Shown: piece by piece, positions 19,701-62,058 of the stretch
Numbering within the stretch: position 1 is the stretch's first letter
Layout: the number at the start of each line of letters is the position of its first letter
Assembly: GCA_036924285.1 (NCBI GenBank)
Contig: JAYKYS010000010.1
Coordinates: 5,704,001-5,768,000, forward strand
Direction of reading: 5' to 3'
DNA length: 64,000 bases
From: Asterella californica
Lineage: Eukaryota; Streptophyta; Marchantiopsida; Marchantiales; Aytoniaceae
Translations under genes and position numbers: made by a program
The notes under the pieces: model-generated
What the model was told of the DNA's origin: nothing
Databases searched by the model: none
The model's input: only the letters and a program-made list of their open reading frames with translations

Positions 19701-20082
19701 CGAGAAGTGTATGAGAGAGGTCAGTGGCCTATCGAACTGAACCATGGTTGGGTGCTACGAGCTGCAAACAACCATAAGGGTGAGTTATACGGCGCTTGTC
19801 CTAACGTGAGAGTGAAGCTGGGTGATGTGGAGGTAGATCAGCACTTCTTCGTACAATCTTCTGCTTCATATCCCGTGATTCTTGGTCAGCCGTATATCAC
19901 TGCAGTTAGAATAGAGACCAAGGTGATGGATGACGGGTCTCACTATGCTAGGATCCGTAGTCTAGATGATAGACGTTCTGTGTAGTTTCTGACTGTTCGT
20001 ACGAATCACGAACGAAACAGACAGACTTTGAGAGATTCTCCTATTTGTAGGAGCAAGGGTTTTCTGAAACCACTCTTGTTGG
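16799..20082 (+). pseudogene. A1 gag-protease, broken
   Basis: The natural ATG is at 16,799 (MDRKSATAAT...). A frame change near 16,880 leads into GLDTAEILKTLAALVQQ and the gag core (ISRYLREYRGEMELVRV, LREEFLEEDSERVTRR). The CCHC knuckle begins CIWCDS at 17,826 and is split by the solo family H LTR (17,852-18,764). The rest resumes at 18,765. A deletion of about 190 bp near 19,545 removes the segment after DIIK. Protease follows: ALVDHGSEINIMS (from about 19,660) and VILGQPYITAVR. A TAG at 19,983 cuts the frame. The frameshift signal to pol is at 20,057. Confidence 0.87.
17852..18764 (-). repeat. Solo LTR of family H inside A1 gag, flanked by GATC
   Basis: 913 bp, inverted relative to the family H LTR at 5614-6528 and matching it to both ends (TGTAA...TTACA outer bases). 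The 4-bp duplication GATC is at 17,848-17,851 and 18,765-18,768. It interrupts the gag zinc knuckle, and the flanking halves rejoin the A2 sequence. A lone LTR with a target duplication implies insertion followed by LTR-LTR recombination, after A1 had inserted. Confidence 0.92.
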
Positions 20083-20125
20083 ACGGGATATCAAGAGTGA
20101 TGGATCTTATACTACTATGATCCCG
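20057..20125 (+). promoter_or_regulatory. A1 putative -1 frameshift signal
   Basis: Slippery GGGTTTT (20,057-20,063, read G GGT TTT in the gag frame), 7-nt spacer, stem CACTCTTG/CAAGAGTG (20,071-20,078 with 20,092-20,099). Loop bases CGGGAT (20,084-20,089) can pair with ATCCCG (20,120-20,125). Relative to A2, one C-G pair in the stem is replaced by T-A on both sides. The gag stop next to the stem has been lost (TTG instead of TCG-TAG). Confidence 0.72.
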
Positions 20126-26298: not shown

Positions 26299-27425
26299 TG
26301 TCGAGTTGAGAGTCTTTCTTGGGGAGGGCGGACCTCCTGACTGTAATCGATCAGAGAAAAATGACCAGAAAAGAAAATAGGTTGCTGCTGACGATGTGAT
26401 CTCAAAACACTGCTCCTTGTGCTCACCAATTACAAAAACAAGCACTCAAACACACCCTGGGTACACACATAGGTCTCTCAAGATTCAATTAACTTTATTA
26501 TAGTGTCGTCTGCACCACCAATTTCTCCAACTGTACAGAAAATCTCTCTCTTCCTCTCCTGCGCACTTGTCTTCACCCGTCAAGCCAAAAGTCTACCCAG
26601 TACGTCTCAATCTGAACCTAATAGAGAAATTCGGACCCTTGAATCTTATTCCTCTCCTTGCCCCAACTGAAACTCTCAGAAATCTGATCCAACGTCGATC
26701 AAAAGTCCCCTGTAGATTTCCAAACGATCTCTCAATAGAACTGTCTCTTCAGAGTAATTTCTCCCCAGAATAGTTTATTTAAACAACGTCCAAGCCTAAA
26801 ACTCATGCCTCTCTCTCTTACGATGCCCTCCCAATTCAATCTGTCAGCAATTTGATCTTCCCCCAGCTTCTTAGCTTCTCCTGCGTATTCCGCTTCCGCT
26901 CTCTCAGAAAACCTTCCTTTTCAAAAAAAACTGTCCTCCCCATCCCAAGTCGCCGCAGGTATTTTACCTAAAAGTAAAGACCCTAGCTTAAGCTGCCCCC
27001 CTGCTGTCCTTATCAGCGTAGTCACTTATCAGAAGCAGGGCCTTAGCTAAGCTGCCCCCCTCTTAAACTCTAATTCTCCTCCTTCCGCCTCCGCTGTAAT
27101 CTTCTGCTTCAAGCTTCTGTTGTAATCTTCCGCTTCCACTGTAATATTCCGCTTCCACTGTAGTTTTCCGCTTCCGCTGTAATATTCCGCTTCAAGCTTC
27201 CGCGGTAATCTTCCGCTTCCGCTGTAGTTTTCCGCTTCCGCTGTAATATTCCGCTTCAAGCTTCCGCGGTAATCTTCCGCTTCCGCTGTAGTTTTCCGCT
27301 TCCGCTCTCTCAGAAAACCTTCCTTTTCAAAAAAAACTGTCCTCCCCATCCCAAGTCGCCGCAGGTATTTTACCTAAAAGTAAAGACCCCAGCTTAAGCT
27401 GCCCCCCTGTTGTCCTTATCAGCGT
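26299..27425 (-). repeat. D 3' LTR, distal part
   Basis: Begins (plus strand) TGTCGAGTTGAGAGTC, identical to the start of the D 5' LTR at 44,334, and runs to the A2 insertion at ...TTATCAGCGT. The same words are contiguous in the 5' LTR (45,449-45,475), which proves the split. Includes a short block of the CTTCCGC minisatellite (27,076-27,303). Confidence 0.9.
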
Positions 27426-28907
27426 TGTCGTGATGTGAATCATTTGACATAGTAAATGATTCACTTATCACTGCTGTCGCGTTACTTAGCGCATGTTATT
27501 TCTACTCCGACACTTGATGTTCAGTAGTCTTAGAAGTTAACTCTGTAATGTTCTTAGTCTTTTATGCTTATGGTTGACACCTTTTGCATATGGTGTTAAC
27601 TCTGTCAAATATTTTGGATCCTAGTAGGTTGGTAGTATGACATTTATCTTGTTCAAGCATTCGTACGCTTGTGCAAGTAAATTCATACTTATCTATGATA
27701 CTCAATGTACATGACTTAGATTTACCATGTAGATAGGGGTTTGAAATCATGGGTTGTACTTACTTGTCGCCCATGCACGCTTTCTAGCTGATTTAAGTTA
27801 TTTTTCGGGGCTGCGTGTCGTTTTAGGTAGTTTAAGTTTTACGTTGGCACTCTAGGGAGCTTGACGTGGTAGCCTATGAGTAAAACTAAGTTGCCACGTG
27901 GTTTAGGGTACTAAAGGACAACCAAGTGGAGCTATGAACTCCCATTGGTCTGTTTTTGTCTTTTGTTAAACTCTAAATTTAGAAACAGAGCTCTAGAGTG
28001 GAGTTCGAGCAATTTGTGAGGGTACTTCGAAATCTGAGAGCACAGGGAGAGAGAGCTCGTCAAGCCAAGCACTGTCAGTGAAATTTTCAGTCGATTTGAA
28101 GCAATAAAGACGAAGTTATGCCCAATTGAAGTTCGGATTATGCCAAAACTGCATCACTTTTGTTGATTTTGGGGTTTTCAGTGTCATTTGCAGCAGAATT
28201 GAAGAAATCGCTTCAAAACTTCGTGGTTGCGTTCTCTGCCAGCAGGGCTACGATTTCCCAAAAAGTTTCATATCGATTGAGTAACTGAGTAATTCAGGGC
28301 GGCCGCTGAAGCAGAGGGGGTCTGAAAAGCTCTTAATCTAGAGCAGCGACTTCAGAGGAGGAGATCTGGAGTTCTGTGTACATTCAGGAGGCCCAACTTC
28401 ACAGGGATGTTCAGCATCCTGTAGACTTCAAATACTGTGAGAAACTTTGAAATTCATCGAGCCAATTCTCTGTTCTAGGTCAGAAGAGCTGTCTAGGTAC
28501 CAGAAATTGCCATAATTTCTCTGTTCAGAAAGTTTCTACCCATATCTCGGTGCTCTGAACTGAACTCAAGCTGAAACTTCGTCTGTATGGTCAGTAGGGC
28601 CTCATTGACATATAGGAGAAGTTCTGAAGCCTAAACCATCTTATGTTTCTGATTCTTGACTGTTAAAGTTCGTTGGTGAACCTTCTTACTGTTAGTTTGA
28701 TCTGATTTTCACTTCCTGAGCATACTGGAGGATCTATTCGACCTGTGTGAAGATTTATAGTGCCCTTATGACCTGAAGCCTACCTCTGGATAGTAAACAA
28801 CTAGAACTTGAAGCCCAGCACCTTCCCTAGTAGTCTTTCCACAACCTTCACGATCATATCGCAGCCAGAAGGTTCTGCCCTTCCCGAGGAAAACTCTCAA
28901 CTCTACA
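27426..28907 (+). repeat. A2 5' LTR
   Basis: TGTCGTGATGTG at the start; ends CTCAACTCTACA (one base from the family CTCGACA). It carries the palindromic G-box CCACGTGG at 27,894-27,901 and a nearby GACGTGG at 27,863. No gene inside. Confidence 0.95.
27894..27901. promoter_or_regulatory. G-box (CCACGTGG) in A-family LTR
   Basis: The same palindrome is kept in the A1 LTR (15,717-15,724) and the A2 3' LTR (35,418-35,425), about 30 bp after a TTGACGTGG word. G-boxes bind bZIP and bHLH factors in plants. Whether this drives the LTR promoter is inference. Confidence 0.5.
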
Positions 28908-28909
28908 TC

Positions 28910-28927
28910 TGGTGCTTCCACTGAGAG
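28910..28927 (+). promoter_or_regulatory. A2 primer binding site
   Basis: TGGTGCTTCCACTGAGAG, 2 nt inside the 5' LTR. It is identical in A1 (16,732) and in D (44,314-44,331, minus). The primer tRNA is not identified. Confidence 0.68.
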
Positions 28928-28975
28928 CTCTTGGGCTGATTGATTGAGAAGGTTGAGGTCCTACAAGGAGAAGAG

Positions 28976-31529
28976 ATGGAACGCAAGAGCGGAGCTGCTG
29001 CTGCTGTCTCTGGGGCTGGAGCATCAACGTCTACTGCTGCACCGTCAACTGCACCTGCGTCTTCTACAGCGACATCTGCATCTGGTCTGGACACGGCTGA
29101 GATCTTGAAGACGCTTGCGGCCCTGGTCCAACAGCATCCGATCGTTGGAGGGGGTGAGTTAAAATCCACCAAGGCTTTGCAAGCGATAGTGAATAGGTGT
29201 GGAAGGTTTGAAGGTAGAGATATTTCTAGATATCTGCGTGAGTATAGAGGAGAGATGGAGCTGGTTAGGGTTACTGATGCGGAGATGATAGCAAGTTTTG
29301 AGTTAGCTGTCATTCCTGAGTTGCGGGACCAAGTTAGGGATGTACAGAGAAGAAATCTTGGAATCTGGATGAGTTTTGAGCGATCTCTTCGAGAGGAGTT
29401 TCTTGAGGAGGATTCAGAGAGAGTTACTAGAAGGACATTTCTAGACTGGATTGAGCAGCAACCTGGTCGTATGATGAGCCTGAGTGAGTTGTTGAGAGAG
29501 TTTGATCGGAGATACCGACAACTTTCAACTCTAGAGCGAATCACCCTAGATGCTAGGAAAACAGAGCTTTTCCTGCAGGCTACCGATGATGCTACGGCAG
29601 ATCGGTTATGTTTTATGTTGGCCGATCGATCTGCTGAAGGGGGTGTTACTATGGATTGGGGGAGAGTTGAGGATGCTGTGGCTGTACTGACAAGGCAGAG
29701 GAGGGGAAGAGTGGCTGTGGGAGGACGTCCGCTTGCAGAAGTGGTCACTCCACCTTATGCTGCTCCTCAAGTACAGCAACCTTTGGCCCCTGCTCCCAGA
29801 CCTGTTGTCCCAGCTGCAGTTCCTTTGATGCAAGTTGTGCCAGCTCCAGCACAAAGGGCACCTGTTCAGAGACCTGCGGAGAACCATGGTCAACAGAATC
29901 AGATTGAAGACCTGATTCGGCAGATGCGAGAGCTGAAGGTAGAGCTAGCTGGATTGCAGAGAGCAGCCACCGGCGCCTGCTGCTGCACGTCCAGGAGGTG
30001 CTCCTGTCCGTAGGTGTATTTGGTGTGACAGTCCTGATCACTTCCGAGGAGACTGTCAAGAGCTCACAGCTGCTTTGCGAGATGGTGTGGTTCGCTATCA
30101 GAACGGTAGGCTGCACCTTTCTTCTACTGGAGAGCCGTTGAGCACGCAGTTTGGACGAGGAGGCATGAGGAGTCTACCTCAGATTGCTGCGGCGGCAACT
30201 GTACATGCATTGATGGCACCACCGGTAAATCCTGATGTATATGCTGGACATATTGAGGTTTCTTCTAGTCCTACGTTGCTAGATAGGACTGCTGAGAAGA
30301 GTATTGCCCCCGTTCCTTCTGAAGTACTGAAGAGGGGAGCCGAGTCTATTCGTAGGGTCACAGGATGGGGAGATCCTGTAGATGCTGCTTCTATCAGAGC
30401 ATTCTTGGATGTAGATAGACACGTTCATTGGCAGGATGCTTCTGTGGAGGAGAAGAGGCGGCGAGAAGCCTCTAAACTTGATACTGGAATTCCTGAGGAG
30501 ACTGGGGATAGACGGAGAGTCACAAGGAGACGAGCGGCTCTTCCTGAAGACATCCCGTCTACTTCTGCAGCTCCTCCACCTGCGCCGGGTCCTATGGAGG
30601 ATGTGCAGAGATCCCAGCAGGAGCCAACGACTGCTGGTAGGCGGTTTACTGCCCAAGAGAAGGGGAAGGGACCGGCTTACAAGTTGGCAGCTGATATTGA
30701 AACTTCTACTGATCTGAAGAGTATCTTGGAGCAGAGGATACTGGATGCGCGAATCGAGTTTTCTCTTCGGGAAGTTCTTGGTATTGCAAAGAGGGAGTTT
30801 CACGAACTGATCATCGACATCATCAAGCGCAAGAGACAGGTGATGTCCGAGCAGGTAGAGAGTCAGATGATAGATGTAGTAGGAGCTTCTCTGAATGATG
30901 CAGAGTTTGGAAAGGTGCATTTTCAGGAAGCTGATGATAAGAGATACCAGCAAGAAGCATTGGTTGCTGGTACGGACACTATTGAGTTCAACGATGAGGA
31001 AGTTGGTGGGGAGAGTCCAGCTAGTGAAAGTGATTTCAGAAAGAGACATTGGGCTCGTGCCACAACTGCTACGCGAGTTCGTCTTGGAAGTTTGGCTGAA
31101 CCTGTTGCTGCTTTAGTTGATCACGGATCTGAGATCAACATCATGTCACGGGAGGTGTACGAGAGAGGTCAGTGGCCTATCGAGCTAAACCATGGTTGGG
31201 TGTTACGTGCTGCAAACAACCAGAAAGGTGAGCTATACGGCGCTTGTCCTAACGTGAAGGTGAAGATAGGTGATGTGGATGTAGATCAGCACTTCTTCGT
31301 GCAATCTTCTGCTTCATATCCTGTGATTCTTGGTCAGCCTTATATCACTGCTGTTCGAATGGAGACCAAGGTGATGGATGATGGATCTCATTATGCTAGG
31401 ATCCGTAGTCCAGATGATAGACATTCGGTGCAGTTTCTGACCGTTCGTACGAACCACGAACGAAACCGTCAAACTTTGAGAGATTCTCCTATCTGTAGGG
31501 GTAAGGGTTTTCTGAAACCACTCTCGTAG
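28976..31529 (+). pseudogene. A2 gag-protease with a 2-nt deletion
   Basis: ATG at 28,976 (MERKSGAAAAVSG). An Ala/Ser/Thr-rich N-terminus is followed by the gag core (TAEILKTLAALVQQHPI, DISRYLREYRGEMELVRV, REEFLEEDSERVTRRTF). A Pro/Gln-rich linker and a helical segment (QNQIEDLIRQMRELK) come next. Compared with A1 and D, one GA is missing at about 29,958-29,963, shifting the frame. The knuckle CIWCDSPDHFRGDC and the rest are in the next frame (to 31,529). Protease: LVDHGSEINIMS (Asp codon 31,119) and VILGQPYITAVRME. It ends KGFLKPLS at a TAG just inside the frameshift stem. Without the lesion it would be about 850 residues, like D. Confidence 0.9.
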
Positions 31530-31573
31530 GACGGGATAGCGAGAGTGATGGATCTACTGCTACTATGATCCCG
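31505..31573 (+). promoter_or_regulatory. A2 putative -1 frameshift site with H-type pseudoknot
   Basis: Slippery GGGTTTT at 31,505-31,511 reads G GGT TTT in the gag-protease frame, the canonical X XXY YYZ form. A 7-nt spacer follows, then stem 1 CACTCTCG (31,519-31,526) with CGAGAGTG (31,540-31,547). Stem 2 pairs loop bases CGGGAT (31,532-31,537) with ATCCCG (31,568-31,573). The gag stop TAG is at 31,527-31,529, in the loop. Slipping by -1 yields Gly-Phe-Ser and the open pol frame. Geometry is shared with A1, D and E. Confidence 0.82.
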
Positions 31574-34500
31574 CTTGAGCAGCCTGAGGGATCACAGGAG
31601 GTTGATGGAAAGGCTGCTCAAGATTCAGAAAGTAGTTGCACTGTGCATAGTTGGAAATCTGGGTTGATGGCTTTCAGTTCTGATGATTGGAGTGAGTTCA
31701 CACGGATGGAGGATTTGACTGAGAAGAGTAGAAGGCAGATGGAGAGGTGTGCAGCAAATCTGCGTTGTACAGGAGTTCTGAAGGAAGATGAGATGATTTC
31801 TGGTGTTTATGAGGAGTTTGTAGGTGTGCAGTCTTTTGTTTGTTGGCTGGATGGTGTAGATAGGTTGATGGAACAGATGGGAGGTAGGGTGGTGATCCCC
31901 ATCCATTCTCGTGAAGTCTATGAGGAAATTATCTCGTACTTACGATATCGTCCTCATCCGAGACTGGAGAATGGATGGAAAGATGCAGTCTGTTGGTGTG
32001 GCTTACATCAGGAAGCGGAAGTACACGCCAAGTATAAAGCTGTAGCGAGGAAGGTGAGACCTGTGGCGACCCAATTACCTGTTGATTCTCAACAGCAGAT
32101 GGAGTTAGCGGCTGCTGAGCCTGTGCTTAGAGATCCTACACAGGTAGGACACAAGTTTACTCAGGAGACACTCGAGCAGCTCCAGATAGGAGGAGGTGGC
32201 TTCTTGACTGAAGAGGAGAAACGAGCTTTTGAACAGATGATAGTTAGCCATGGTAAGGCATTTTCTTTCTCGGCTGAGGAGATAGGTTGTGTGGATCCTA
32301 GTGTGATAGCTCCGATGGTTATCTTCACTGTTCCTCACGTACACTGGGACTTGAAGCCGATTCCAGTCCCTCGTGCCTTGCTACCGAAGGTGATTGAGTT
32401 ACTGAAGGAGAGGATGCAGATGGGTATTCTTGAACCATCTATGGCTCCGTACTCTAGCCGATGGTTCACAGTACCTAAGAAGACAGGAGCTCTGCGCTTC
32501 ATCCAAGACTTGCAGCCTGCCAACAACATCACGATTCGAAACGTTGGAACAGGACCTGTGGTTGATGAAGTAGTTGAGGCGTTTGCTGGAAGGTCAATCT
32601 ATTCTATTGGAGATCTGTTTTCAGATCACATTCGAGATGTGGAGAAGATTCTGATGCGTTTGGAGGAGGTACACCTCACTCTATCAGGTACCAAATCTCG
32701 TTTTGGTATGTCAGAGATTGTGGTGGTGGGTCATTTGTGTGGTACTTTTGGGAGGCGTCCGAACCCAGAGAAGGTAGATGCTATAGCAAGGATAGCTGAC
32801 TGCACCAACATCACTGAGGTTCGACGGTTCTTGGGAGCTTGTGTGTTCTTTCGTGTGAGTATTCCTCATTATGCACACATTGCCGAGCCTCTGTATGCAC
32901 TTCTGAGGAAGGGAAGGAGGTTTACTTGGCGGCAAGAACATCATGAGACGATGGAGCAGCTGAAGGAGATTCTGAAGTCTCCACCTATACTAAGGAGGCT
33001 TAGCTACGAGAGCGGGAGGCCTGTGGTACTGACTGTTGATACGAGTCCCAAGGCGATTGGATGGGCAGTTGGCCAAGAAGATGCAGAAGGTGTGCGGTTT
33101 GTTTCAAGGTTTGGAGCTCGGATCTTAACAGATAGACAGCGTAACTATCCTCAAGTGAAGCGTGAGTTGTGGGGAGCTGTTACTGCTATGAAGGTAGATC
33201 GAGAGTTCTTGATAGGAGCTCGTGTGATATTAGAAACAGATTGCTTACCTTTGTTGGGTATGATAGCGAACTGCAATACACCAGACATAGCAATGCTACA
33301 ATGGATTGCTTATGTCCGGAGTCTAAACCCTGAGCTAAAGCATATAGCAGGGAAAGACAATCCAGTTGCAGATATGTTGTCTAGGGCTCGTTATACAGAT
33401 GAGGATGAGATGTTTGCAGAGGTGGAGAATGAAGAGAAGAGAGACGTTTGGTGCCAAGTTGGTCAGCAGACTTCAGACTTGGAACCACTGCCGTTCAATG
33501 AGGGGTTCTACTCAGAAAAGTTCCGCAATATTGGATTTTATCTGAGTTCGTTATCCAGAAGAGAAGGATGGAGTGATGCAGAGTTCAAGGAGATCAGACG
33601 GAAGGCGTATAGTTATCTTCTACGTGAGGGTTATCTGTGGAAACGTCCGAAGAGAAGAGATGGGATGCTTACTAGAGTGGTGGATGATCAACCGACAAAG
33701 CTTAATCTGCTGAAGGAGTTTCATGATACCTTGTGGGCTGGACATCGTGGAGTCTGGGCTACATACACGAAGCTGAAGGAGCGTTACTGGTGGAAGGGTT
33801 TGTATCAAGACGTGGTGGACTTTGTTGGGTCGTGTCTGCACTGCCAGTTCTACTCTAAGATCCGTTACAGAGATGGGCTTGTACCTACTTATCCACCTAG
33901 TATTCATTTTCAGTGGGTTCTTGATCTTGTGATGATGCCACCGGGGTTATGGGGGATGCGTTACTTGGTATTGGCTCGAGAGGATCTCTCCAACTATGTG
34001 GAGGGACGAGCACTACGGACGAAGACTACAGAGAATATCTGCCGGTTCGTGCTTGAAGATATCATCTGTCGCTATGGATCGGTTGGGAGATTACGTGCAG
34101 ATAGAGGCGAGTTGAGAGGCGCTGAAGTGAAGGAGTTTTTTGCTCGTTATGGAGTAAAGCTTCGGCTTACCACTGCTATGAATCCAGAGGGCATTGGTAA
34201 GAGTGAACGAGGACACCCTTCTATTGTTCATGCTTTAGTGAAAGCATGTGATGGTAGGCCTAGAGAATGGCCGAGACTACTTCCATTTGCTTTGTGGGCT
34301 GATAGAACTACACACTGTACCACGACTGGTTATATGCCAGTTGAGCTTATGCTGGGGCAGAAACCGATCATGCCTGCTGAGGAGTACTTTCCCACGTGGG
34401 CTACACTACCGTGGGAAGATGGTATAGATCGTGCTTCACTCCTTGCTTTACGTATTAGGCAGTTGGAGCGAAGGGAGGAGGATCTTGCTGATGCGCAGGA

Positions 34501-34903
34501 GAGGCTGAAGGTGACTCGAGTCAGAAACAAGGAACGTTTTGACAAGACTCACCGACTACGACCGAAGCCAATACATGTTGGTGACTGGGTTCTGGTATAT
34601 GATAGCACGTTGGAGAATCAGCACTCTACACTTCGTAAGTTCTCTCGAAGATGGTTCGGGCCTTATGTTGTGCTAGATGTGTATGAGAATGCCACCTATA
34701 GTTTGCGTGAGTTGGACGGTACTCTTTTGAAGCTATCTGTGACTGGCAAACGTGTGAAACTGTTCAAGAGACGCGGAGGGTCAGTTGAGTTATTCAACTT
34801 TCTGGAGTCAGAGTTGAAGACGACAAGAGACGAAGACGTCCCAGTGTCTGATGAGGCTGAGGCGGAGGAGAGCGATGATGATGAGGATCAAACAGAAGAC
34901 TGA
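31505..34903 (+). pseudogene. A2 pol (RT-RNase H-integrase), RT catalytic core deleted
   Basis: Open -1 frame from the frameshift site to TGA at 34,903. RT: LKPIPVPRALLPKVIELLKE, ILEPSMAPYSSRWFTVPKK, FIQDLQPANNITIRN. After SIYSIGDLF it jumps to SDHIRDVEKI (about 32,620), lacking the segment that in D holds GYDQFQLA and FLDD, roughly 75 codons. Downstream is intact: GHLCG, VRRFLGACVFF; RNase H with TVDTSPKAIGWAVG, QVKRELWG, LETDCLPLLG, DNPVADMLSRA. The integrase zinc finger is FHDTLWAGHRG...CLHCQ; core acidic residues lie in WVLDLVMM, RADRGEL and GIGKSERGH; the C-terminal GPY-like motif is RRWFGPYVV. The first ATG (31,565) is not needed for the fused protein. Catalytically dead for RT. Confidence 0.92.
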
Positions 34904-34937
34904 GGAGATTGGCACATACCGGAGGATGTGCAGGTTC

Positions 34938-34949
34938 AGAGGGGGTGGA
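34938..34949 (+). promoter_or_regulatory. A2 polypurine tract
   Basis: AGAGGGGGTGGA directly before the 3' LTR. D (minus, 38,049-38,062) and E (minus, 48,777-48,788) have the same arrangement after a shared GTGCAGGTTT-like word. It would prime plus-strand DNA synthesis. Confidence 0.75.
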
Positions 34950-36431
34950 TGTCGTGATGTGAATCATTTGACATAGTAAATGATTCACTTATCACTGCTG
35001 TCGCGTTACTTAGCGCATGTTATTTCTACTCCGACACTTGATGTTCAGTAGTCTTAGAAGTTAACTCTGTACTGTTCTTAGTCTTTTATGCTTATGGTTG
35101 ACACCTTTTGCATATGGTGTTAACTCTGTCAAATATTTTGGATCCTAGTAGGTTGGTAGTATGACATTTATCTTGTTCAAGCATTCGTACGCTTGTGCAA
35201 GTAAATTCATACTTATCTATGATACTCAATGTACATGACTTAGATTTACCATGTAGATAGGGGTTTGAAATCATGGGTTGTACTTACTTGTCGCCCATGC
35301 ACGCTTTCTAGCTGATTTAAGTTATTTTTCGGGGCTGCGTGTCGTTTTAGGTAGTTTAAGTTTTACGTTGGCACTCTAGGGAGCTTGACGTGGTAGCCTA
35401 TGAGTAAAACTAAGTTGCCACGTGGTTTAGGGTACTAAAGGACAACCAAGTGGAGCTATGAACTCCCATTGGTCTGTTTTTGTCTTTTGTTAAACTCTAA
35501 ATTTAGAAACAGAGCTCTAGAGTGGAGTTCGAGCAATTTGTGAGGGTACTTCGAAATCTGAGAGCACAGGGAGAGAGAGCTCGTCAAGCCAAGCACTGTC
35601 AGTGAAATTTTCAGTCGATTTGAAGCAATAAAGACGAAGTTATGCCCAATTGAAGTTCGGATTATGCCAAAACTGCATCACTTTTGTTGATTTTGGGGTT
35701 TTCAGTGTCATTTGCAGCAGAATTGAAGAAATCGCTTCAAAACTTCGTGGTTGCGTTCTCTGCCAGCAGGGCTACGATTTCCCAAAAAGTTTCATATCGA
35801 TTGAGTAACTGAGTAATTCAGGGCGGCCGCTGAAGCAGAGGGGGTCTGAAAAGCTCTTAATCTAGAGCAGCGACTTCAGAGGAGGAGATCTGGAGTTCTG
35901 TGTACATTCAGGAGGCCCAACTTCACAGGGATGTTCAGCATCCTGTAGACTTCAAATACTGTGAGAAACTTTGAAATTCATCGAGCCAATTCTCTGTTCT
36001 AGGTCAGAAGAGCTGTCTAGGTACCAGAAATTGCCATAATTTCTCTGTTCAGAAAGTTTCTACCCATATCTCGGTGCTCTGAACTGAACTCAAGCTGAAA
36101 CTTCGTCTGTATGGTCAGTAGGGCCTCATTGACATATAGGAGAAGTTCTGAAGCCTAAACCATCTTATGTTTCTGATTCTTGACTGTTAAAGTTCGTTGG
36201 TGAACCTTCTTACTGTTAGTTTGATCTGATTTTCACTTCCTGAGCATACTGGAGGATCTATTCGACCTGTGTGAAGATTTATAGTGCCCTTATGACCTGA
36301 AGCCTACCTCTGGATAGTAAACAACTAGAACCTGAAGCCCAGCACCTTCCCTAGTAGTCTTTCCACAACCTTCACGATCATATCGCAGCCAGAAGGTTCC
36401 GCCCTTCCCGAGGAAAACTCTCAACTCTACA
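34950..36431 (+). repeat. A2 3' LTR
   Basis: 1482 bp, nearly identical to the 5' LTR, beginning TGTCGTGATGTG directly after the purine tract and ending CTCAACTCTACA. Followed by the GCGT target duplication and the rest of the D 3' LTR. Confidence 0.95.
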
Positions 36432-36435
36432 GCGT

Positions 36436-38048
36436 AGTCACTTATCAGAAGCAGGGCCTTAGCTAAGCTGCCCCCCTCTTAAACTCTAATTCTCCTCCTT
36501 CCGCCTCCGCTGTAATCTTCCGCTTCAAGCTTCTGTTGTAATCTTCCGCTTCCACTGTAATATTTCGCTTCCACTGTAGTTTTCCGCTTCCGCTGTAATA
36601 TTCCGCTTCAAGCTTCCGCGGTAATCTTCCGCTTCCGCTGTAGTTCTCCGCTTCCGCTGTAATATTCCGCTTCAAGCTTCCGCGGTAATCTTCCGCTTCC
36701 GCTGTAGTTTTCCGCTTCCGCTGTAGTTTTCCGCTTCCGCTGTAATATTCCGCTTCAAGCTTCCGCGGTAATCTTCCGCTTCCGCTGTAGTTTTCTGCTT
36801 CCGCTGTAATATTCCGCTTCAAGCTTCCGCGATAATCTTCCGCTTCCGCTGTAGTTTTCCGCTTCCGCTGTAATATTCCGCTTCAAGCTTCCGCAGTAAT
36901 CTTCGGCTTCAAGCTTCTGTTGTAATCTTCCGCTTCCACTGTAGTTTTCCGCTTCCGCTGTAATATTCCGCTTCAAGCTTCCGCGATAATCTTCCGCTTC
37001 CACTGTAGTTTTCTGCTTCCGCTGTAATATTCCGCTTCAAGCTTTCGCGGTAATCTTCCGCTTCCGCTGTAATCTTCCGCTTCAGTTTTCCGTTGTAATC
37101 TTCCGCTTCCACTGTAATCTTTCGCTTTAATTTTAAGGCCCCATCTAAAGCTGTTCCTCTGCTGTCCTTATGCGTACATAATATTCAGCAAAAGTTTCCT
37201 GTGCCCTCGATGCCATCTTGATGCCACCCTGAATATACTACAAGCCATCCAATGTAGGCCGAAGCCCCAACACTTATGAGGCTGCCCCACAGGGCTCACA
37301 GCCCCCCCATATGCGCACCAGGTATCTCCCATAGTATATTCAGGATGGCATGCGGAGGCTTAGGCCAAGAAGCCCACGATTAAGGGAGATACCGGTCTCC
37401 CGCCCCTAGATATGCAGGACGTAGCTGCATATCCAACATAGACTCCCTTCCAGGAGGTCAACATGCCGGAATAGGAACTAGAGGCCAGGGAGGATTGATC
37501 CTGAGACCACTTCCCTCCTAGGGAGGCGCCCTATCACTGGGATGGCCTTTGGTTCCGTTCAAGAAGGTAAAAACTTTTGTACACATGTTTTCCTGAAGAA
37601 ATTTTCCTGTAAAGTCTTTACTAGCCTTTCCTACGCTAACTTCTCTATACAACTCCGTTTTTAATGAACAAGGAGTCAAAACTATAGTATTCATGAACAC
37701 CTACACACCCATGCTATCAGATTCTGAGTTCGAGTCACGAGCCAGAATCGACTGATTTCCCTCTTTCACATATTTCACAGCCTAAAACTCGTACTAACTA
37801 TTGCTTAAAACACTTTCTGTCAAAACTAGAAGCATGAGGCCGCTCTCCTCGTTGAGCTTTGATTCTGACGTCTTTCGACTCCCTTAGGGGTGATATTCCA
37901 ACCCAAGCTAGGGGGCAGCTTGTCAAGCATAGCCCCAGCTTAGCTCCTGCCTAGCTTGTTAAGCTGCAGGGCAGCTTCCTTTACACAATATAGAAAAAGA
38001 ATCTCTCTGCAATACTTTTCACTGTATAGACCTATGTACAATACGACA
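36436..38048 (-). repeat. D 3' LTR, proximal part
   Basis: Continues the D LTR after the A2 insertion and ends (plus strand) ...TGTACAATACGACA, next to the D purine tract. It holds a long CTTCCGC minisatellite block (36,495-37,128). A pair of inverted sequences (37,221-37,240 with 37,332-37,351) follows. Its outermost 163 bp (37,886-38,048) are missing from the D 5' LTR. Confidence 0.9.
36495..37128. repeat. CTTCCGC minisatellite in D LTR
   Basis: Units of about 64 bp (CAAGCTTCCGCGGTAATC to the next CAAGC), built from shorter 18-22-bp words ending TGTAATATT, TGTAGTTTT or GGTAATC. Related blocks are at 27,076-27,303, 45,113-45,333 and 45,523-46,050. The array is open in all three minus frames and makes spurious repetitive peptides; it is not a gene. 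Confidence 0.9.
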
Positions 38049-41000: not shown

Positions 41001-41716
41001 CGCTATCATCTGTTCAAACACTGCCTTCTCGTCCTCAGTCAAGAAATCACCCCCTCCTATCTGGAGCTCCTTCAATGTCTCCTCAGTAAACTGGTGCCCT
41101 ACTCGCCTATGATCACGCAAAATAGGCTCAGTCCCACTAGCTGTACTTGCTGCTGGGAGTTAGCAGGTAGTTGAGCTGCTACCGGTCTTACCTTTCTCAG
41201 TACAGATTTGTACTTCGCATGGACATCTGCTTCCTGAGGGAGTGCACACCAACAACTTGCTTCTCTCCCTTCATTATTCTGCATTGGATGAGGAAAGGAC
41301 TGCACATATGTAGCAATCTCCTCATATATGCGTCGAGAGTGGATAAGGATCACCACCACACTATTTTCTCCCTCCATCAATCTACTCACATTGTCTAACC
41401 AACCAATAACTGACTGCACAGACATAAACTCTTCAAACAAGCCAGAAACCACTTCGTCTTCAGGTAGAACTCCTACACGCCACAACTCTGATATCTGTTT
41501 CACCACCCATCTTTTTGTATTTTTCTTCATATCTTCAACTCTTGTAAATCGACTCCACCCATCTGCCTCAAACATCAGCAATCCAGACTGCCAACTCTGT
41601 ACACCACACTTGTCTCCAGACCTCTGTACATGTCTCGCTTCCAACTCTGACGGGACCTCAACAGTAGGTTCTACACCCCTGTCTTCCCGCTCTACAGGAG
41701 TGGACTGTGAAAACCC
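38094..41716 (-). pseudogene. D pol, three small frame breaks
   Basis: Starts at the -1 site (41,716) in frame GFSQSTPVERED and carries the pre-RT region (SWQSGLLMFEADGWSRF). Frame breaks, each best explained by a single-base indel by comparison with A2: about 41,115, about 40,328 and about 38,575. RT is complete: IPVPRALLPKLIKLLKE, GDLYSGYDQFQLAVES, active site FLDD. RNase H: TVDTSPKAIGWAIG, LETDCLPLLG, VADMLSRA. Integrase: FHDTLWAGHRG, CLHCQFYSK, WVLDLVVM, RADRGELRG, GIGKSERGH, with the C-terminal RRWFGPYLV. It ends acid-rich at 38,094. This copy preserves the RT segment lost from A2. Confidence 0.91.
41651..41716 (-). promoter_or_regulatory. D putative -1 frameshift site with pseudoknot
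   Basis: Minus strand: GGGTTTT (41,716-41,710, G GGT TTT in gag frame), 7-nt spacer. Stem 1 CACTCCTGT (41,702-41,694) pairs with ACAGGGGTG (41,682-41,674; nine pairs, one U.G). Loop CGGGA (41,689-41,685) can pair with TCCCG (41,655-41,651). The sequence of stem 1 differs from A2 but pairing, spacer and layout are kept. Confidence 0.82.
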
Positions 41717-44333: not shown

Positions 44334-46808
44334 TGTCGAGTTGAGAGTCTTTCTTGGGGAGGGCGGACCTCCTGACTGTAATCGATCAGAGAAAAATGAC
44401 CAGAAAAGAAAATAGGTTGCTGCTGACGATGTGATCTCAAAACACTGCTCCTTGTGCTCACCAATTACAAAAACAAGCACTCAAACACACCCTGGGTACA
44501 CACATAGGTCTCTCAAGATTCAATTAACTTTATTACAGTGTCGTCTGCACCACCAATTTCTCCAACTGTACAGAAAATCTCTCTCTTCCTCTCCTGCGCA
44601 CTTGTCTTCACCCGTCAAGCCAAAAGTCTACCCAGTACGTCTCAATCTGAACCTAATAGAGAAATTCGGACCCCTGAATCTTATTCCTCTCCTTGCCCCA
44701 ACTGAAATTCTCAGAAATCTGATCCAACGTCGATCAAAAGTCCCCTGTAGATTTCCAAACGATCTCTCAATAGAACTGTCTCTTCAGAGTAATTTCTCCC
44801 CAGAATAGTTTATTTAAACAACGTCCAAGCCTAAAACTCATGCCTCTCTCTCTTACGATGCCCTCCCAATTCAATCTGTTAGCAATTTGATCTTCCCCCA
44901 GCTTCTTAGCTTCTCCTGCGTATTCCGCTTCCGCTCTCTCAGAAAACCTTCCTTTTCAAAAAAAACTGTCCTCCCCATCCCAAGTCGCCGCAGGTATTTT
45001 ACCTAAAAGTAAAGACCCCAGCTTAAGCTGCCCCCTGCTGTCCTTATCAGCGTAGTCACTTATCAGAAGCAGGGCCTTAGCTAAGCTGCCCCCCTCTTAA
45101 ACTCTAATTCTCCTCCTTCCGCCTCCGCTGTAATCTTCTGCTTCAAGCTTCTGTTGTAATCTTCCGCTTCCACTGTAATATTCCGCTTCCACTGTAGTTT
45201 TCCGCTTCCGCTGTAATATTCCGCTTCAAGCTTCCGCGGTAATCTTCCGCTTCCGCTGTAGTTTTCCGCTTCCGCTGTAATATTCCGCTTCAAGCTTCCG
45301 CGGTAATCTTCCACTTCCGCTGTAGTTTTCCGCTTCCGCTCTCTCAGAAAACCTTCCTTTTCAAAAAAAACTGTCCTCCCCATCCCAAGTCGCCGCAGGT
45401 ATTTTACCTAAAAGTAAAGACCCCAGCTTAAGCTGCCCCCCTGTTGTCCTTATCAGCGTAGTCACTTATCAGAAGCAGGGCCTTAGCTAAGCTGCCCCCC
45501 TCTTAAACTCTAATTCTCCTCCTTCCGCCTCCGCTGTAATCTTCCGCTTCAAGCTTCTGTTGTAATCTTCCGCTTCCACTGTAATATTTCGCTTCCACTG
45601 TAGTTTTCCGCTTCCGCTGTAATATTGCGCTTCAAGCTTCCGCGGTAATCTTCCGCTTCCGCTGTAGTTTTCCGCTTCCGCTGTAATATTCCGCTTCAAG
45701 CTTCCGCGGTAATCTTCCGCTTCCGCTGTAGTTTTCCGCTTCAAGCTTCCGCGATAATCTTCCGCTTCCGCTGTAGTTTTCCGCTTCAAGCTTCCGCGGT
45801 AATCTTCCGCTTCCGCTGTAATCTTCCGCTTCAAGCTTCTGTTGTAATCTTCCGCTTCCACTGTAGTTTTCCGCTTCCGCTGTAATATTCCGCTTCAAGC
45901 TTCCGCGATAATCTTCCGCTTCCACTGTAGTTTTCCGCTTCCGCTGTAATATTCCGCTTCAAGCTTTCGCGGTAATCTTCCGCTTCCGCTGTAATCTTCC
46001 GCTTCAGTTTTCCGTTGTAATCTTCCGCTTCCACTGTAATCTTTCGCTTTAATTTTAAGGCCCCATCTAAAGCTGTTCCTCTGCTGTCCTTATGCGTACA
46101 TAATATTCAGCAAAAGTTTCCCGTGCCCTCGATGCCATCTTGATGCCACCCTGAATATACTACAAGCCATCCAATGTAGGCCGAAGCTCCAACACTTATG
46201 AGGCTGCCCCACAGGGCTCACAGTCCCCCCATATGCGCACCAGGTATCTCCCATAGTATATTCAGGATGGCATGCGGAGGCTTAGGCCAGGAAGCCCACG
46301 ATTAAGGGAGATACCGGTCTCCCGCCCCTAGATATGCAGGACGTAGCTGCATATCCAACATAGACTCCCTTCCAGGAGGCCAACATGCTGGAATAGGAAC
46401 CAGAGGCCAGGGGGGATTGATCCTGAGACCACTTCCCTCCTAGGCAGGCGCCCTATCACTGGGATGGCCTTTGGTTCCGTTCAAGAAGGTAAAAACTTTT
46501 GTACACATGTTTTCGTGAAGAAATTTTCCTGTAAAGTCTTTACTAGCCTTTCCTACGCTAACTTCTCTATACAACTCCGTTTTTAATGAACAAGAATCAA
46601 AACTATAGTATTCATGAACACCTACACACCCATGCTATCAGATTCTGAGTTCGAGTCACGAGCCAGAATCGACTGATTTCTCTCTTTCACATATTTCACA
46701 GCTTAAAACTCGTACTAACTATTGCTTAAAACACTTTCTGTCAAAACTAGAAGCATGAGGCCGCTCTCCTCGTTGAGCTTTGCATTCTGACGTCTTTCGA
46801 CTCCCTTA
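44334..46808 (-). repeat. D 5' LTR, outer end missing
   Basis: Plus strand starts TGTCGAGTTGAGAGTC; matches the reassembled 3' LTR through to GACTCCCTTA at 46,808, then stops. The remaining 163 bp seen in the 3' LTR are replaced by element E LTR sequence. Contains minisatellite blocks (45,113-45,333 and 45,523-46,050) with a copy number different from the 3' LTR. Confidence 0.9.
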
Positions 46809-51800: not shown

Positions 51801-52349
51801 TCCTACCTTCAACTCCTTGAGCGTAGTTGCAGTAAACTTGTGACCCACTTGGCGAGGATCCCTTAAGCTCTTCTCCTTCGAAGCTTGCTGAACTTGGTGG
51901 TTGGAGTCATCGGGTAAAGGTTGAGCTACAGGCTTAACCTTTCTATCTACCGTTTTGTACTTGGTTTCAACCCTGACTTCTGGTTTCTGGAATGACTCTA
52001 TGATCGAATAGAGCTCTCTAGAATTTATTTCCACCAGTTGATCTTCACTCCTTTTCTCAATCTTGGTAAGTTCCTCCAAAGGATCCTCTAATCCCATCTC
52101 CATGTAAACACCCGCTATTCTATCCTCCTCGTCAAGTACACACACTCTTTTTAGATCTTTCTCAACTCTTTCCACAGCCTTCCGCTCCCACTTCTGTAGA
52201 TCAACAAGCTGCGTATATAAAGCAAATCCACCCTCAGAAAATCCCACAACTCCTGTACAAAAGACACTTCCCTTCGCTGGCGAGAGTACCTCCTTCTGTG
52301 TATCGGTATCACCATACCCTCGCTCTATGGTGACCCTATGCGAAAATCC
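48843..52349 (-). pseudogene. E pol, two frame breaks
   Basis: Starts at the GGATTTT site in frame GFSHRVTIERGYGD. RT: IPVPRAHLPELLKEKM, FIQDMQLVNQVTIRN, DLYSGYDQFQL; a shift near 51,350; then VTTMRTPLGLIRMC and active site FLDD. RNase H: TVDSSPIAIGWAVG, QVKRELWG; a shift near 50,560 in a G run; then VETDCLPLLG and DNPVADMLSRA. Integrase: FHDSLWAGHRG, CQTCQMYSE, WVVDLVIM, TTDCGEL (Asp kept, following Cys unusual), NAKSERGH, C-terminal KRWFGPYVV. Ends in an acidic tail. Each shift looks like a one-base indel. Confidence 0.9.
52280..52349 (-). promoter_or_regulatory. E putative -1 frameshift site with pseudoknot
   Basis: Minus strand: GGATTTT (52,349-52,343; G GAT TTT in gag frame), 7-nt spacer. 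Stem 1 GGTCACCATA (52,335-52,326) pairs with TATGGTGATACC (52,316-52,305; eight contiguous pairs, a 2-nt bulge, two more). Loop GCGAG (52,323-52,319) can pair with CTCGC (52,284-52,280). Sequence is unlike A2 and D, layout the same. The heptamer is the form used by dianthovirus-type plant RNA viruses. Confidence 0.75.
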
Positions 52350-60195: not shown

Positions 60196-62058
60196 ATGCC
60201 TCCGACCAGAGGAAGAAGCAGAAGACGCACGAGTAAAGATCTTGAGTGGGTACATTCACCCCAGCGAACCGCTTCTAGAGACCAGCGGATATCCTTGAGA
60301 CATCAAAGGAAAGAAGAAGAGCTCAAGAAGATCCGATCAATAGAGTTGAAAGAACCTTCCATCTCGAGCATAATCTTTGGAGAAGACAGAAGCCAACCGG
60401 GTGATCACGTGTATAAAGTAGATTTTGGTACTGGTTACTCGGAAGACGTCTTCCCAAGTGCAGAAGAAGCTTCTCAAGGTGAAGGAAGACTAGAGGAGAT
60501 CGTTCCAGACGTCTCAGAAGGTGATAGCGATAGTAGTTCTGACTCAGAAGACGACCTTCGTGATTCAGACAGGCCTGGACCTTCGAGAAGACCCTCTCCA
60601 CCACCTGGGCCTGAGGGAGGAAGAAGTTGGCAATCGCATCAGCCGGCAGTCGACATGGCTTCTCACACTCGGCAGAAGTACCATCCGTACGACGATGATG
60701 CTGACGCGGGTGACTTCATCACGATGTTCGAGACCATCTCTCTATCCAACAAGGAAGACTCGGATGTCGACAGATTCCATGTATTTCTCAGTTTGATCGT
60801 AGGGAAGGAAAGGAAATGGATGAGTAAAATGTTGGATGATGGGTTAGTAATGACCGCTTTGGCTACTCTGAAGGCAGCTTTTCTGAAAAGGTTCAGAGGA
60901 GTGGGCTATGATCGGATGACCCTCATAGAACTTCAGAGGCTCGAACGGAAGAAGAAAGAGACACTACGGGATTACACCGAGAGGTTTGAAGACCTCCTGG
61001 ATCACATCCCTCAGAACTAAGGAAGACCCGGTTATTATGCCCAGCAAGCCGTGGACTGGTACTTGGGAGGATTATCTCAAGATATGGAGTTGTACTGCAG
61101 AAGAGGAGGAGGTGATGATTTAGTAGAAGTACATAAGCATACCGAGTAGTATGAAACCTCGAGCATCACTCGGAATATGACGAAAGACAAAGGGAAGACC
61201 TCGAAGAAGTCCAAGAAGTCGAAGAAGTCTTCTAGGAAGTCCAAGAGGAAGTCCAAGTCCACTGAAACTGATAACAGTGATTCGGAAGTATCCTCTACTT
61301 CTGAAGAGTCTACTGTCGAAAGTTCAGAATCCGAATCTGAACAAGAGAAGAAGACACGGAAGAAGAAGAAGGAGAAGACACGAGCAAGGGAGGAAGTTGT
61401 GCAGAAGATGCCTCAGACTCAGATCATTCAGTCTGCACCTGATCCCCGTATCGATGAAGTTCTGAAGCAGTTTGCCGACCTGAAAGTTCATCTTTTGAAC
61501 CAGAAGGACAAGCGGAAGCAACCAACGGCTTCCCGGCCAAACCTTTGGTGCAACCTTTGTAACTCTTCCGGGCACACCAGAGATCAGTGTGCGCAGGATC
61601 AAGCTGTCAATTGGGCAGGCTGGGAAGAAGATGATGAGAGATATCTACACGATCCTAGTGGGGAAACCTGCTATAGAATCGAGACGATACAACCCTTCAC
61701 TCCTACTCCTCCCGCCCAATATAATCGTTATGTACTTAGAGATAGAGCTAGTAATGTACAGACCAGGACGCCCTGGCAACCTTCTTCATCACAACGACCT
61801 CTAAACCCTCTTCCTGGAGCGTGCAATAATTGTGGAGAGACAAGACACTGGTGGTCCATCTGTCCTCATCCGAGAAGACAGATTGGGCAAGTGCCCTTGT
61901 GTGGAAACTGTAAGGAAGCAGGTCATTTCACAGGAAATTGTCCTCAGACCTTACGGCCACGACAAATGGTTAGATTTGCAGAGACCACTCCTGCCGAAGT
62001 CGCATCAGCTTCTAAACTCGAGCTAGCAGTGGTACATCTATCACGAAGAAGATCCTGA
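60196..62058 (+). pseudogene. Element G gag with three zinc knuckles
   Basis: ATG at 60,196. A charged N-terminus, an acidic Ser/Asp stretch, a Pro-rich stretch (PGPSRRPSPPPGPEGG), then the gag core (DAGDFITMFETISLS, FHVFLSLIVGKERKWMSKM, ERKKKETLRDYTERFEDLL). Stops interrupt at 61,018-61,020 and 61,147-61,149 in an otherwise open frame. A Lys/Ser array follows (SKKSKKSKKSSRKSKRKSKS, from 61,207). Three CCHC knuckles: CNLCNSSGHTRDQC, CNNCGETRHWWSIC, CGNCKEAGHFTGNC. The frame ends at 62,058; coding continues in the next frame. Confidence 0.85.

Follow-up and report, generated by a model that had tools for sequence, protein, structure and literature searches.

Long terminal repeat (LTR) retrotransposons require Gag in excess of Pol. 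In a 64,000-nucleotide stretch of the genome of the liverwort Asterella californica (assembly GCA_036924285.1, contig JAYKYS010000010.1, positions 5,704,001 to 5,768,000 of the forward strand; hereafter the window), we examined four related retrotransposon copies, designated A1, A2, D and E, at whose gag-protease/pol junction there is very probably a programmed −1 ribosomal frameshift signal that sets the Gag:Pol ratio. In an alpharetrovirus, avian sarcoma and leukosis virus (ASLV), protease lies in the gag frame and a single −1 shift with a pseudoknot precedes reverse transcriptase (RT). The liverwort elements share this layout, with protease in the gag frame, whereas the ASLV heptamer and host are unrelated.

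A recent review distinguishes two strategies for obtaining excess Gag: ribosomes may shift frame, or a separate short transcript may supply additional Gag; the plant examples that it works through follow the latter (PMC12786077). According to a 2016 review, a 2003 survey knew of only two plant element types with split gag and pol, both of them +1 (PMC5009743), and a 2019 plant survey includes some groups with two open reading frames (ORFs) (PMC6317226). Many animal LTR retrotransposons and PEG10 are similar to the liverwort elements in that pol is in −1, in many cases with a tandem heptamer and in PEG10 with a pseudoknot (PMC5009743), but they belong to animal lineages. Two of the heptamers are those of plant viruses, with GGGUUUU working in barley yellow dwarf virus (BYDV) and GGAUUUU in pea enation mosaic virus 2 (PEMV2), where a change to GGGUUUU gave 112% of wild type (PMC4737148). 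The frameshift sites of luteo-, umbra- and dianthoviruses (BYDV, PEMV2 and red clover necrotic mosaic virus, RCNMV) are thus among the nearest known systems. In groundnut rosette virus, BYDV and RCNMV a stop codon immediately follows the slippery site (PMC4737148), a heptamer-stop layout shared by the liverwort subfamilies F and E2. In BYDV and RCNMV, however, a bulge pairs with a distant 3' site (PMC4737148), whereas the liverwort elements are LTR retrotransposons with a compact, local H-type pseudoknot, and the likeness to plant viruses does not imply shared descent.

Results

In A2, on the forward strand, the gag-protease ORF (0 frame, 30075..31529, TAG stop at 31527-31529) overlaps a pol frame in −1 that is entered at the heptamer and occupies 31505..34903. 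A TAA in the pol frame (31502-31504) directly precedes the heptamer, and the first ATG of that frame is at 31565 (ORF 31565-34903). The slippery heptamer, G GGT TTT (31505..31511), was recognised by its sequence and phase, and its position is kept in the genomic copies sampled. It is followed by a 7-nt spacer (31512..31518, assigned from sequence), the 5' arm of stem 1, CACTCTCG (31519..31526), a loop containing the 5' arm of stem 2, CGGGAT (31532..31537), the 3' arm of stem 1, CGAGAGTG (31540..31547), 20 nt, and the 3' arm of stem 2, ATCCCG (31568..31573), all four arms being assigned by sequence and covariation. The signal of A1 occupies 20057..20125 on the forward strand (heptamer 20057-20063; stem 1 20071-20078/20092-20099; stem 2 20084-20089/20120-20125), in a copy with a stop codon in the gag frame upstream of the signal, and that of D occupies 41651..41716 on the reverse strand (heptamer 41716-41710; stem 1 41702-41694/41682-41674; stem 2 41689-41685/41655-41651).

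A preliminary description of this DNA had assigned pol to −1 in all four copies, which was borne out when frames and ORFs were checked. It had also reported GGGTTTT in the phase G GGT TTT followed by a 7-nt spacer in A1, A2 and D, changes in stem 1 matched arm for arm among these three copies, and a stem 2 of CGGGAT/ATCCCG in A1 and A2 and CGGGA/TCCCG in D; coordinates and sequence agree on each point. E had been given no signal, a view that we reject, because it carries GGATTTT at 52349-52343 on the reverse strand and, downstream, two stems that follow the plan of A1, A2 and D in different sequence (signal 52280..52349; stem 1, GTCACCATA/TATGGTGAT, 52334-52326/52316-52308; stem 2, GCGAGGG/CTCTCGC with one G-U pair, 52323-52317/52286-52280). 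The combination of heptamer and pseudoknot is therefore real and wider than first noted. Separately, the 3' arm of stem 2 in A2 can also pair with a later GGGATC, forming a GATCCC/GGGATC hairpin at 31567-31593. Such a pairing is available in 38 of the 53 copies, the D type included, that carry GGGT or GGAT at +161, and the hairpin is a possible competing fold for stem 2.

GGGTTTT alone is common, occurring 11 times in the window against 6.5 expected, a count reached by 5 of 100 shuffles. The best pseudoknots at the A1, A2, D and E sites have summed stacking energies of −26 to −30 kcal/mol. Dinucleotide shuffles reached the stem energy in 0 of 200 trials for A1, A2 and E and in 1 of 200 for D, and in a second run on A1, A2 and D, 0 or 1 of 300 were as strong. 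When the 162 canonical heptamers (X XXY YYZ) of the window, counted over both strands, were compared by the pseudoknot that follows, D, A2 and A1 had the three strongest. A scan of 63910 positions, covering every second base on both strands, found energies of −20 kcal/mol or lower at 1252 positions and reached −25.9 at 117, which fall into 18 clusters. Since the A1, A2, D and E sites make up only four of these clusters, strong knots are present elsewhere in the window too. The shuffles and the window-wide scan led us to reject a chance origin for the A1, A2 and D stems. A comparison of the window with Rfam gave no match at the gathering score. Very strong pseudoknots, of −33 to −36 kcal/mol, are also predicted where no canonical heptamer precedes them, at 20097-20111, 31545-31557 and 1623-1639 on the forward strand and at 59520-59506 on the reverse strand.

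We then turned to the assembly from which the window was taken (516.7 Mb, 773 contigs). Since copies must not be picked by the RNA signal itself, they were sampled by a protease motif upstream of it, ITAVRMETKV, written as a degenerate DNA pattern, which gave 2126 genome matches (1030 forward, 1096 reverse) against 0 for the reversed control pattern. The sample analysed comprised the first 100 motif places, all on one contig. At the homologous position these copies have GGGTTTT (49), GGATTTT (35), GGTTTTT (10), other variants (4) or no recognised heptamer (2). The preliminary description had expected the heptamer to be conserved, and as a class (GGGTTTT/GGATTTT/GGTTTTT) it is kept in 94 of the 100 copies, in a phase that would suit slippage. 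A stricter rule, which also demanded overlap and did not include GGTTTTT, gave 42 copies with GGGTTTT, 31 with GGATTTT and 27 without a heptamer. We rejected the idea that the heptamer is a by-product of a conserved Gly-Phe codon pair, because Asp-Phe and Val-Phe are also found and the TTTT run is always kept. GGTTTTT replaces GGGTTTT in subfamily D2 (ten copies: L060, L096, L097, L099, L102, L109, L114, L128, L132 and L141), where pol is still in −1.

Frame overlap was counted in the 92 copies with a heptamer exactly in the homologous place. The open 0 and −1 frames overlap by 22 nt in 51 of them, 25 nt in 18, 28 nt in 14, 7 nt in 5, 106 nt in 3 and 61 nt in 1, and hence by no more than 28 nt in 88. 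A stop in the pol frame lies immediately 5' of the heptamer in 57 of the 92, the pol frame stays open up to the end of the 430-nt stretch in 74, and the gag-frame stop lies as a rule 0 or 15 nt past the heptamer. In these copies, a downstream ORF in −1 thus overlaps the upstream ORF at the heptamer, as programmed −1 frameshifting would need. The layout is tightest in subfamily F, whose frames overlap by the 7 nt of the heptamer alone; since the pol stop abuts the heptamer on its 5' side and the gag stop on its 3' side, a stop-free change of frame is possible only on the heptamer.

The stimulatory structure of −1 frameshift signals lies 5-9 nt downstream of the heptamer. The knot starts 6-8 nt past it in each of this genome's eight subfamilies, and the order of spacer, stem and loop is kept between families while stem sequences differ strongly. 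Pseudoknot energy was −20 kcal/mol or lower at 86 of 98 genomic sites. Fifteen representatives (eight from this genome, seven from elsewhere) each beat at least 295 of 300 shuffles, so that a stable structure is predicted downstream of the heptamer in 15 of 15, and the best unbroken stem starts 5-9 nt past the heptamer in 13 (exceptions L161, 3 nt, and L159, 11 nt).

Covariation was assessed in alignments of 65 distinct A/D/F sites and 44 distinct E sites. The site finder missed L053 and L115 and assigned 14 sites satisfying both rules to E; 14 rows of the E alignment are gapped in three stem 1 pairs, and those cells were excluded. Among the A/D/F sequences, 95.6% of 904 cells are paired, as against 38-45% with the 3' partners slid by 1-3, and both the double-change cells (31, against 8.1 shuffled) and the covariation score (0.147, against 0.109 shuffled) exceed every shuffle (0/500 each). 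The E sequences behave likewise, with 94.6% of 662 cells paired against 25-54% when slid, 25 double-change cells against 8.3 (0/500) and a score of 0.191 against 0.147 (0/500). Since these shuffles ignore kinship, changes were also placed on trees built from the flanks, the six-column gap of the E2 rows having been shifted behind the 3' arm, its place by sequence. Under this tree null the four compensatory same-branch events of A/D/F compare with a mean of 0.76 (6 of 1000 simulations reach 4) and the four of E with 0.78 (4 of 1000), and the share of cells paired is 95.6% against 82.2% in A/D/F (0/1000) and 94.5% against 86.8% in E (14/1000). Compensatory support is weaker in stem 2, where changes are mostly one-sided. 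The covariation expected by the preliminary description thus rises above shuffle and tree controls in two separate families, A/D/F and E, with limits on further pair types and double changes that are weighed below. The pattern argues for an H-type pseudoknot in which the loop of stem 1 pairs downstream and both stems have been kept through compensatory change.

Relatives were also found outside this genome. A scan of prokaryote assemblies with the gag-protease alignment yielded seven contigs, one from a desert-crust bin and six from a 'Trichormus' bin, all of which look like plant contamination of bacterial bins. Trichormus azollae is the symbiont of the fern Azolla, which would make Azolla the source of the six contigs, and the outside contigs probably come from a fern and from soil crust. 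The pol query had no match in viral contigs or prokaryote assemblies, and the gag-protease query had none in viral contigs. At the end of gag-protease, six of the seven contigs have GGATTTT, GGATTTC or GGTTTTT in phase. A downstream pseudoknot is present in all seven, matched by at most 5 of 300 shuffles (weakest in L164, 5, and L165, 3), with the best unbroken stem starting 3-11 nt past the heptamer. Pol is in −1 in five and remains open for 909, 234, 1171, 1151 and 93 codons, with the contig end truncating the frame in the first and the last case. L162 has 758 open gag-protease codons and a −1 frame that stops after 7 codons; its site, around position 2498, reads AG_GUU_UUU_U and is followed by a strong pseudoknot. 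It is notable in its own right that a publicly available Trichormus bin, nominally a cyanobacterial genome, holds the plant-type LTR retrotransposon contigs L160-L165.

An in-phase G GAY UUY at or near the stop predicts gag-protease ends of the [DGVN]F type. We inspected the C-termini of 120 relatives (the best 120 of 193 matches), of which 9 were without the anchor, 5 continued into pol and 106 were scored. Of the 106, 78 terminate precisely in [DGVN]F, with DF accounting for 72; a further 26 carry [DGV]F among their final 10 residues, and the other 2 show neither. Away from the end, the same tails contain such a dipeptide at 85 of 1763 positions. Because the proteins are related, the 106 tails are not independent observations. 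As the signals of the probable fern and soil-crust relatives closely resemble those of the liverwort, plants seem to possess an ancient counterpart of the device by which RNA viruses make ribosomes slip back. A metagenome gag-protease cluster, P0223 (35 member sequences), ends in QVFD, and Riccia gag proteins ending in RVFPDSLL may use GGTTTTT as D2 does.

The A2 element as a whole occupies 27426..36431 on the forward strand, where its LTRs, at 27426-28907 and 34950-36431, differ at 3 of 1482 positions and the target duplication is 4 bp long, GCGT. It is inserted in an apparent D-element LTR, a paralogue of which, at 45420-45510, represents the empty site of the GCGT duplication; by its sequence the host of the insertion looks like the LTR of a D element. 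The LTR-like stretches around the D-type element contain repeat arrays at 27042-27405, 36522-37250 and 45076-46172, whose steps are 45, 19 and 64 nt. Pfam identified DUF4100 in gag-protease, and in pol it identified RNase H and integrase domains. DUF4100 might suggest a fungal host, a reading rejected in view of the relatives from Riccia, Physcomitrium and Adiantum. RNase H precedes integrase in the pol of A2 and D, relatives have RT ahead of both, and among solved structures A2 pol is matched best by Ty3 Gag-Pol (E 5.4e-45). The domain order PROT-RT-RH-INT and the similarity to Ty3 assign the lineage, as judged from sequence, to Ty3/gypsy. No chromodomain was matched in the pol pieces of A2, D and E at E <= 0.001, in the relatives P0001 and P0010, or in the pol of L161, L162 and L163, and the lineage therefore does not appear to belong to the chromoviruses, which are defined by a chromodomain at the C terminus of pol.

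The nearest named relatives of pol are from Riccia sorocarpa, at no more than 78% identity (best 120 of 189 matches), and those of gag-protease include Physcomitrium patens, Adiantum nelumboides, Riccia and many metagenome proteins (best 120 of 193). Phygy, a Ty3/gypsy clade of the moss P. patens, prefers NCGN targets (PMC6317226). Like Phygy, the A2 lineage is non-chromoviral, and the GCGT duplication of A2 fits NCGN at this one insertion; P. patens gag-protease proteins are among the relatives.

Discussion

We consider it very probable that the liverwort feature is a programmed −1 frameshift signal, and the interpretation given in the preliminary description gains support from a heptamer class that is kept and from covariation above controls. 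Ribosomes making Gag and protease would read the 0 frame up to G GGU UUU, G GAU UUU or G GUU UUU, at which point the H-type pseudoknot 6-8 nt downstream would sit at the mRNA entry channel. The majority would read through to the stop, as a rule 0 or 15 nt past the heptamer, and make Gag-protease. A minority would slip back one base, re-pair on GGG UUU (or GGA UUU, GGU UUU) and enter pol, whose frame becomes open at the heptamer or a short way upstream of it; these slipped ribosomes would make Gag-protease-RT-RNase H-integrase. The outcome would be Gag in excess over Pol, and since protease is in the gag frame, the shift would divide Gag-protease from RT-RNase H-integrase. The sequence itself shows how the frames lie, the heptamer, a pseudoknot that is conserved and covaries, and the narrow overlap; from these we infer that ribosomes shift here, in some fraction, and that the shift has a role in particle assembly.

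Several observations weigh against this explanation. The alignment site finder demanded part of the 5' arm of stem 1, though none of the 3' arms. Further pair types showed no excess over shuffles (496 of 500 at least as high in A/D/F, 431 of 500 in E), and pairs changed on both sides showed only a modest excess (14/500 in A/D/F, 27/500 in E). Same-branch double changes, paired or not, number four per group with no clear excess (reached by 56 of 1000 and 182 of 1000 simulations), and the compensatory events are narrow, two of the four in A/D/F coming from single copies and three of the four in E lying on one pair. In the A/D/F alignment, 5 of 65 rows do not form the stem 1 pair between columns 32 and 50. 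Twelve of the 98 genomic sites are weaker than −20 kcal/mol, 7 of them of D/D2 type, in which a stem 1 pair or a stem 2 arm is broken. The pol of A2 is without the RT catalytic core, having no xDD motif and a gap relative to its relatives near residue 350, and the A2 copy is therefore defective. Outside this genome, L165 is broken and its GGATTTC is out of phase with the gag frame, and in L162 some 1100 open codons encoding RT, RNase H and integrase are in the +1 or −2 frame, which points either to a −2 site or to an indel of 1 nt within the T run.

The GGTTTTT of D2 belongs with these difficulties, as it is common to all ten copies despite poorer P-site re-pairing than GGGTTTT or GGATTTT. To our knowledge, GGTTTTT is known as a slippery site only from porcine reproductive and respiratory syndrome virus (PRRSV). 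The −2/−1 site of PRRSV is GG_GUU_UUU (PMC4937337), close to the AG_GUU_UUU carried by both D2, with pol in −1, and L162; in PRRSV, however, a protein complex on a C-rich motif acts rather than an obvious RNA structure (PMC4937337). Bearing also on D2, PEMV2 retained 36-40% when P-site re-pairing was blocked (PMC4737148).

The two frames would be only apparent if partial splicing of a short intron joined gag-protease to pol. Such splicing operates in Ogre (Tat) elements, which keep gag-protease and RT in separate ORFs, split between protease and RT as in the liverwort elements (PMC6317226). The Ogre ORFs, however, are on average 274 bp apart and are spliced (PMC6317226), whereas those of the liverwort overlap and would be joined by frameshifting. 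Riccia sorocarpa gene models P0004 and P0011 do appear to span the site, and a GTAAGG over the first heptamer bases in A2 and D resembles a splice donor; we rejected it as a conserved donor because it is present only in some families, the string being GCAAGG in A1, TTTAAGG in E and TTCAAGG in E2 while the heptamer is kept. As splicing would account for neither the in-phase heptamer, the pseudoknot, the covariation nor the exact 7-nt overlap in subfamily F, we regard it as highly improbable. Termination-reinitiation or internal initiation, with the knot holding ribosomes, could draw on an ATG just past stem 1, and in A2 the first pol ATG, at 31565, does lie within the pseudoknot region close to the end of the 0 frame. 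Since this would leave unexplained both the in-phase tandem heptamer of 94 copies in 100 and the pol-frame stop directly before it in 57 of 92, we give it even less credence than splicing. Just as implausible is that the stems serve packaging, dimerisation or nuclear export while the frames are joined otherwise, for although some retrotransposon RNAs use pseudoknots for export (PMC12786077), the knot start is fixed 6-8 nt past the heptamer in eight subfamilies of changing sequence and the best unbroken stem lies 3-11 nt past it in the seven outside contigs.

Under programmed −1 frameshifting the subfamilies form a natural series, with one knot architecture, many sequences, three heptamers and two stop spacings, that lends itself to asking what a stimulator must keep. 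A viral-type signal together with 2126 copies of the adjoining protease motif makes the frameshift strategy directly testable in a liverwort. The parts are known, but the literature searched yielded no description of them together in a lineage of plant LTR retrotransposons; within the same literature the earlier claim that such a pseudoknot is not described for this lineage holds, with the proviso that the supplements of PMC6317226 may already list the lineage as two-ORF. A broader scenario, which we regard as speculative and rather unlikely, is that −1 shifting has persisted in a non-seed-plant lineage of Ty3/gypsy elements (liverworts, moss, ferns), together with luteovirus/umbravirus-type sites and a knot that changes fast in sequence while fixed in architecture, and that subfamily L162, perhaps with P0223, has moved to −2 on AG_GUU_UUU. 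If true, the L162 shift would be a −2 site in a retroelement.

Other features of the window

An ORF with a helix-loop-helix domain at 465-1505 on the reverse strand is perhaps a host gene, and an ORF with a Retrotrans_gag domain at 60196-61020 on the forward strand comes from a different element.

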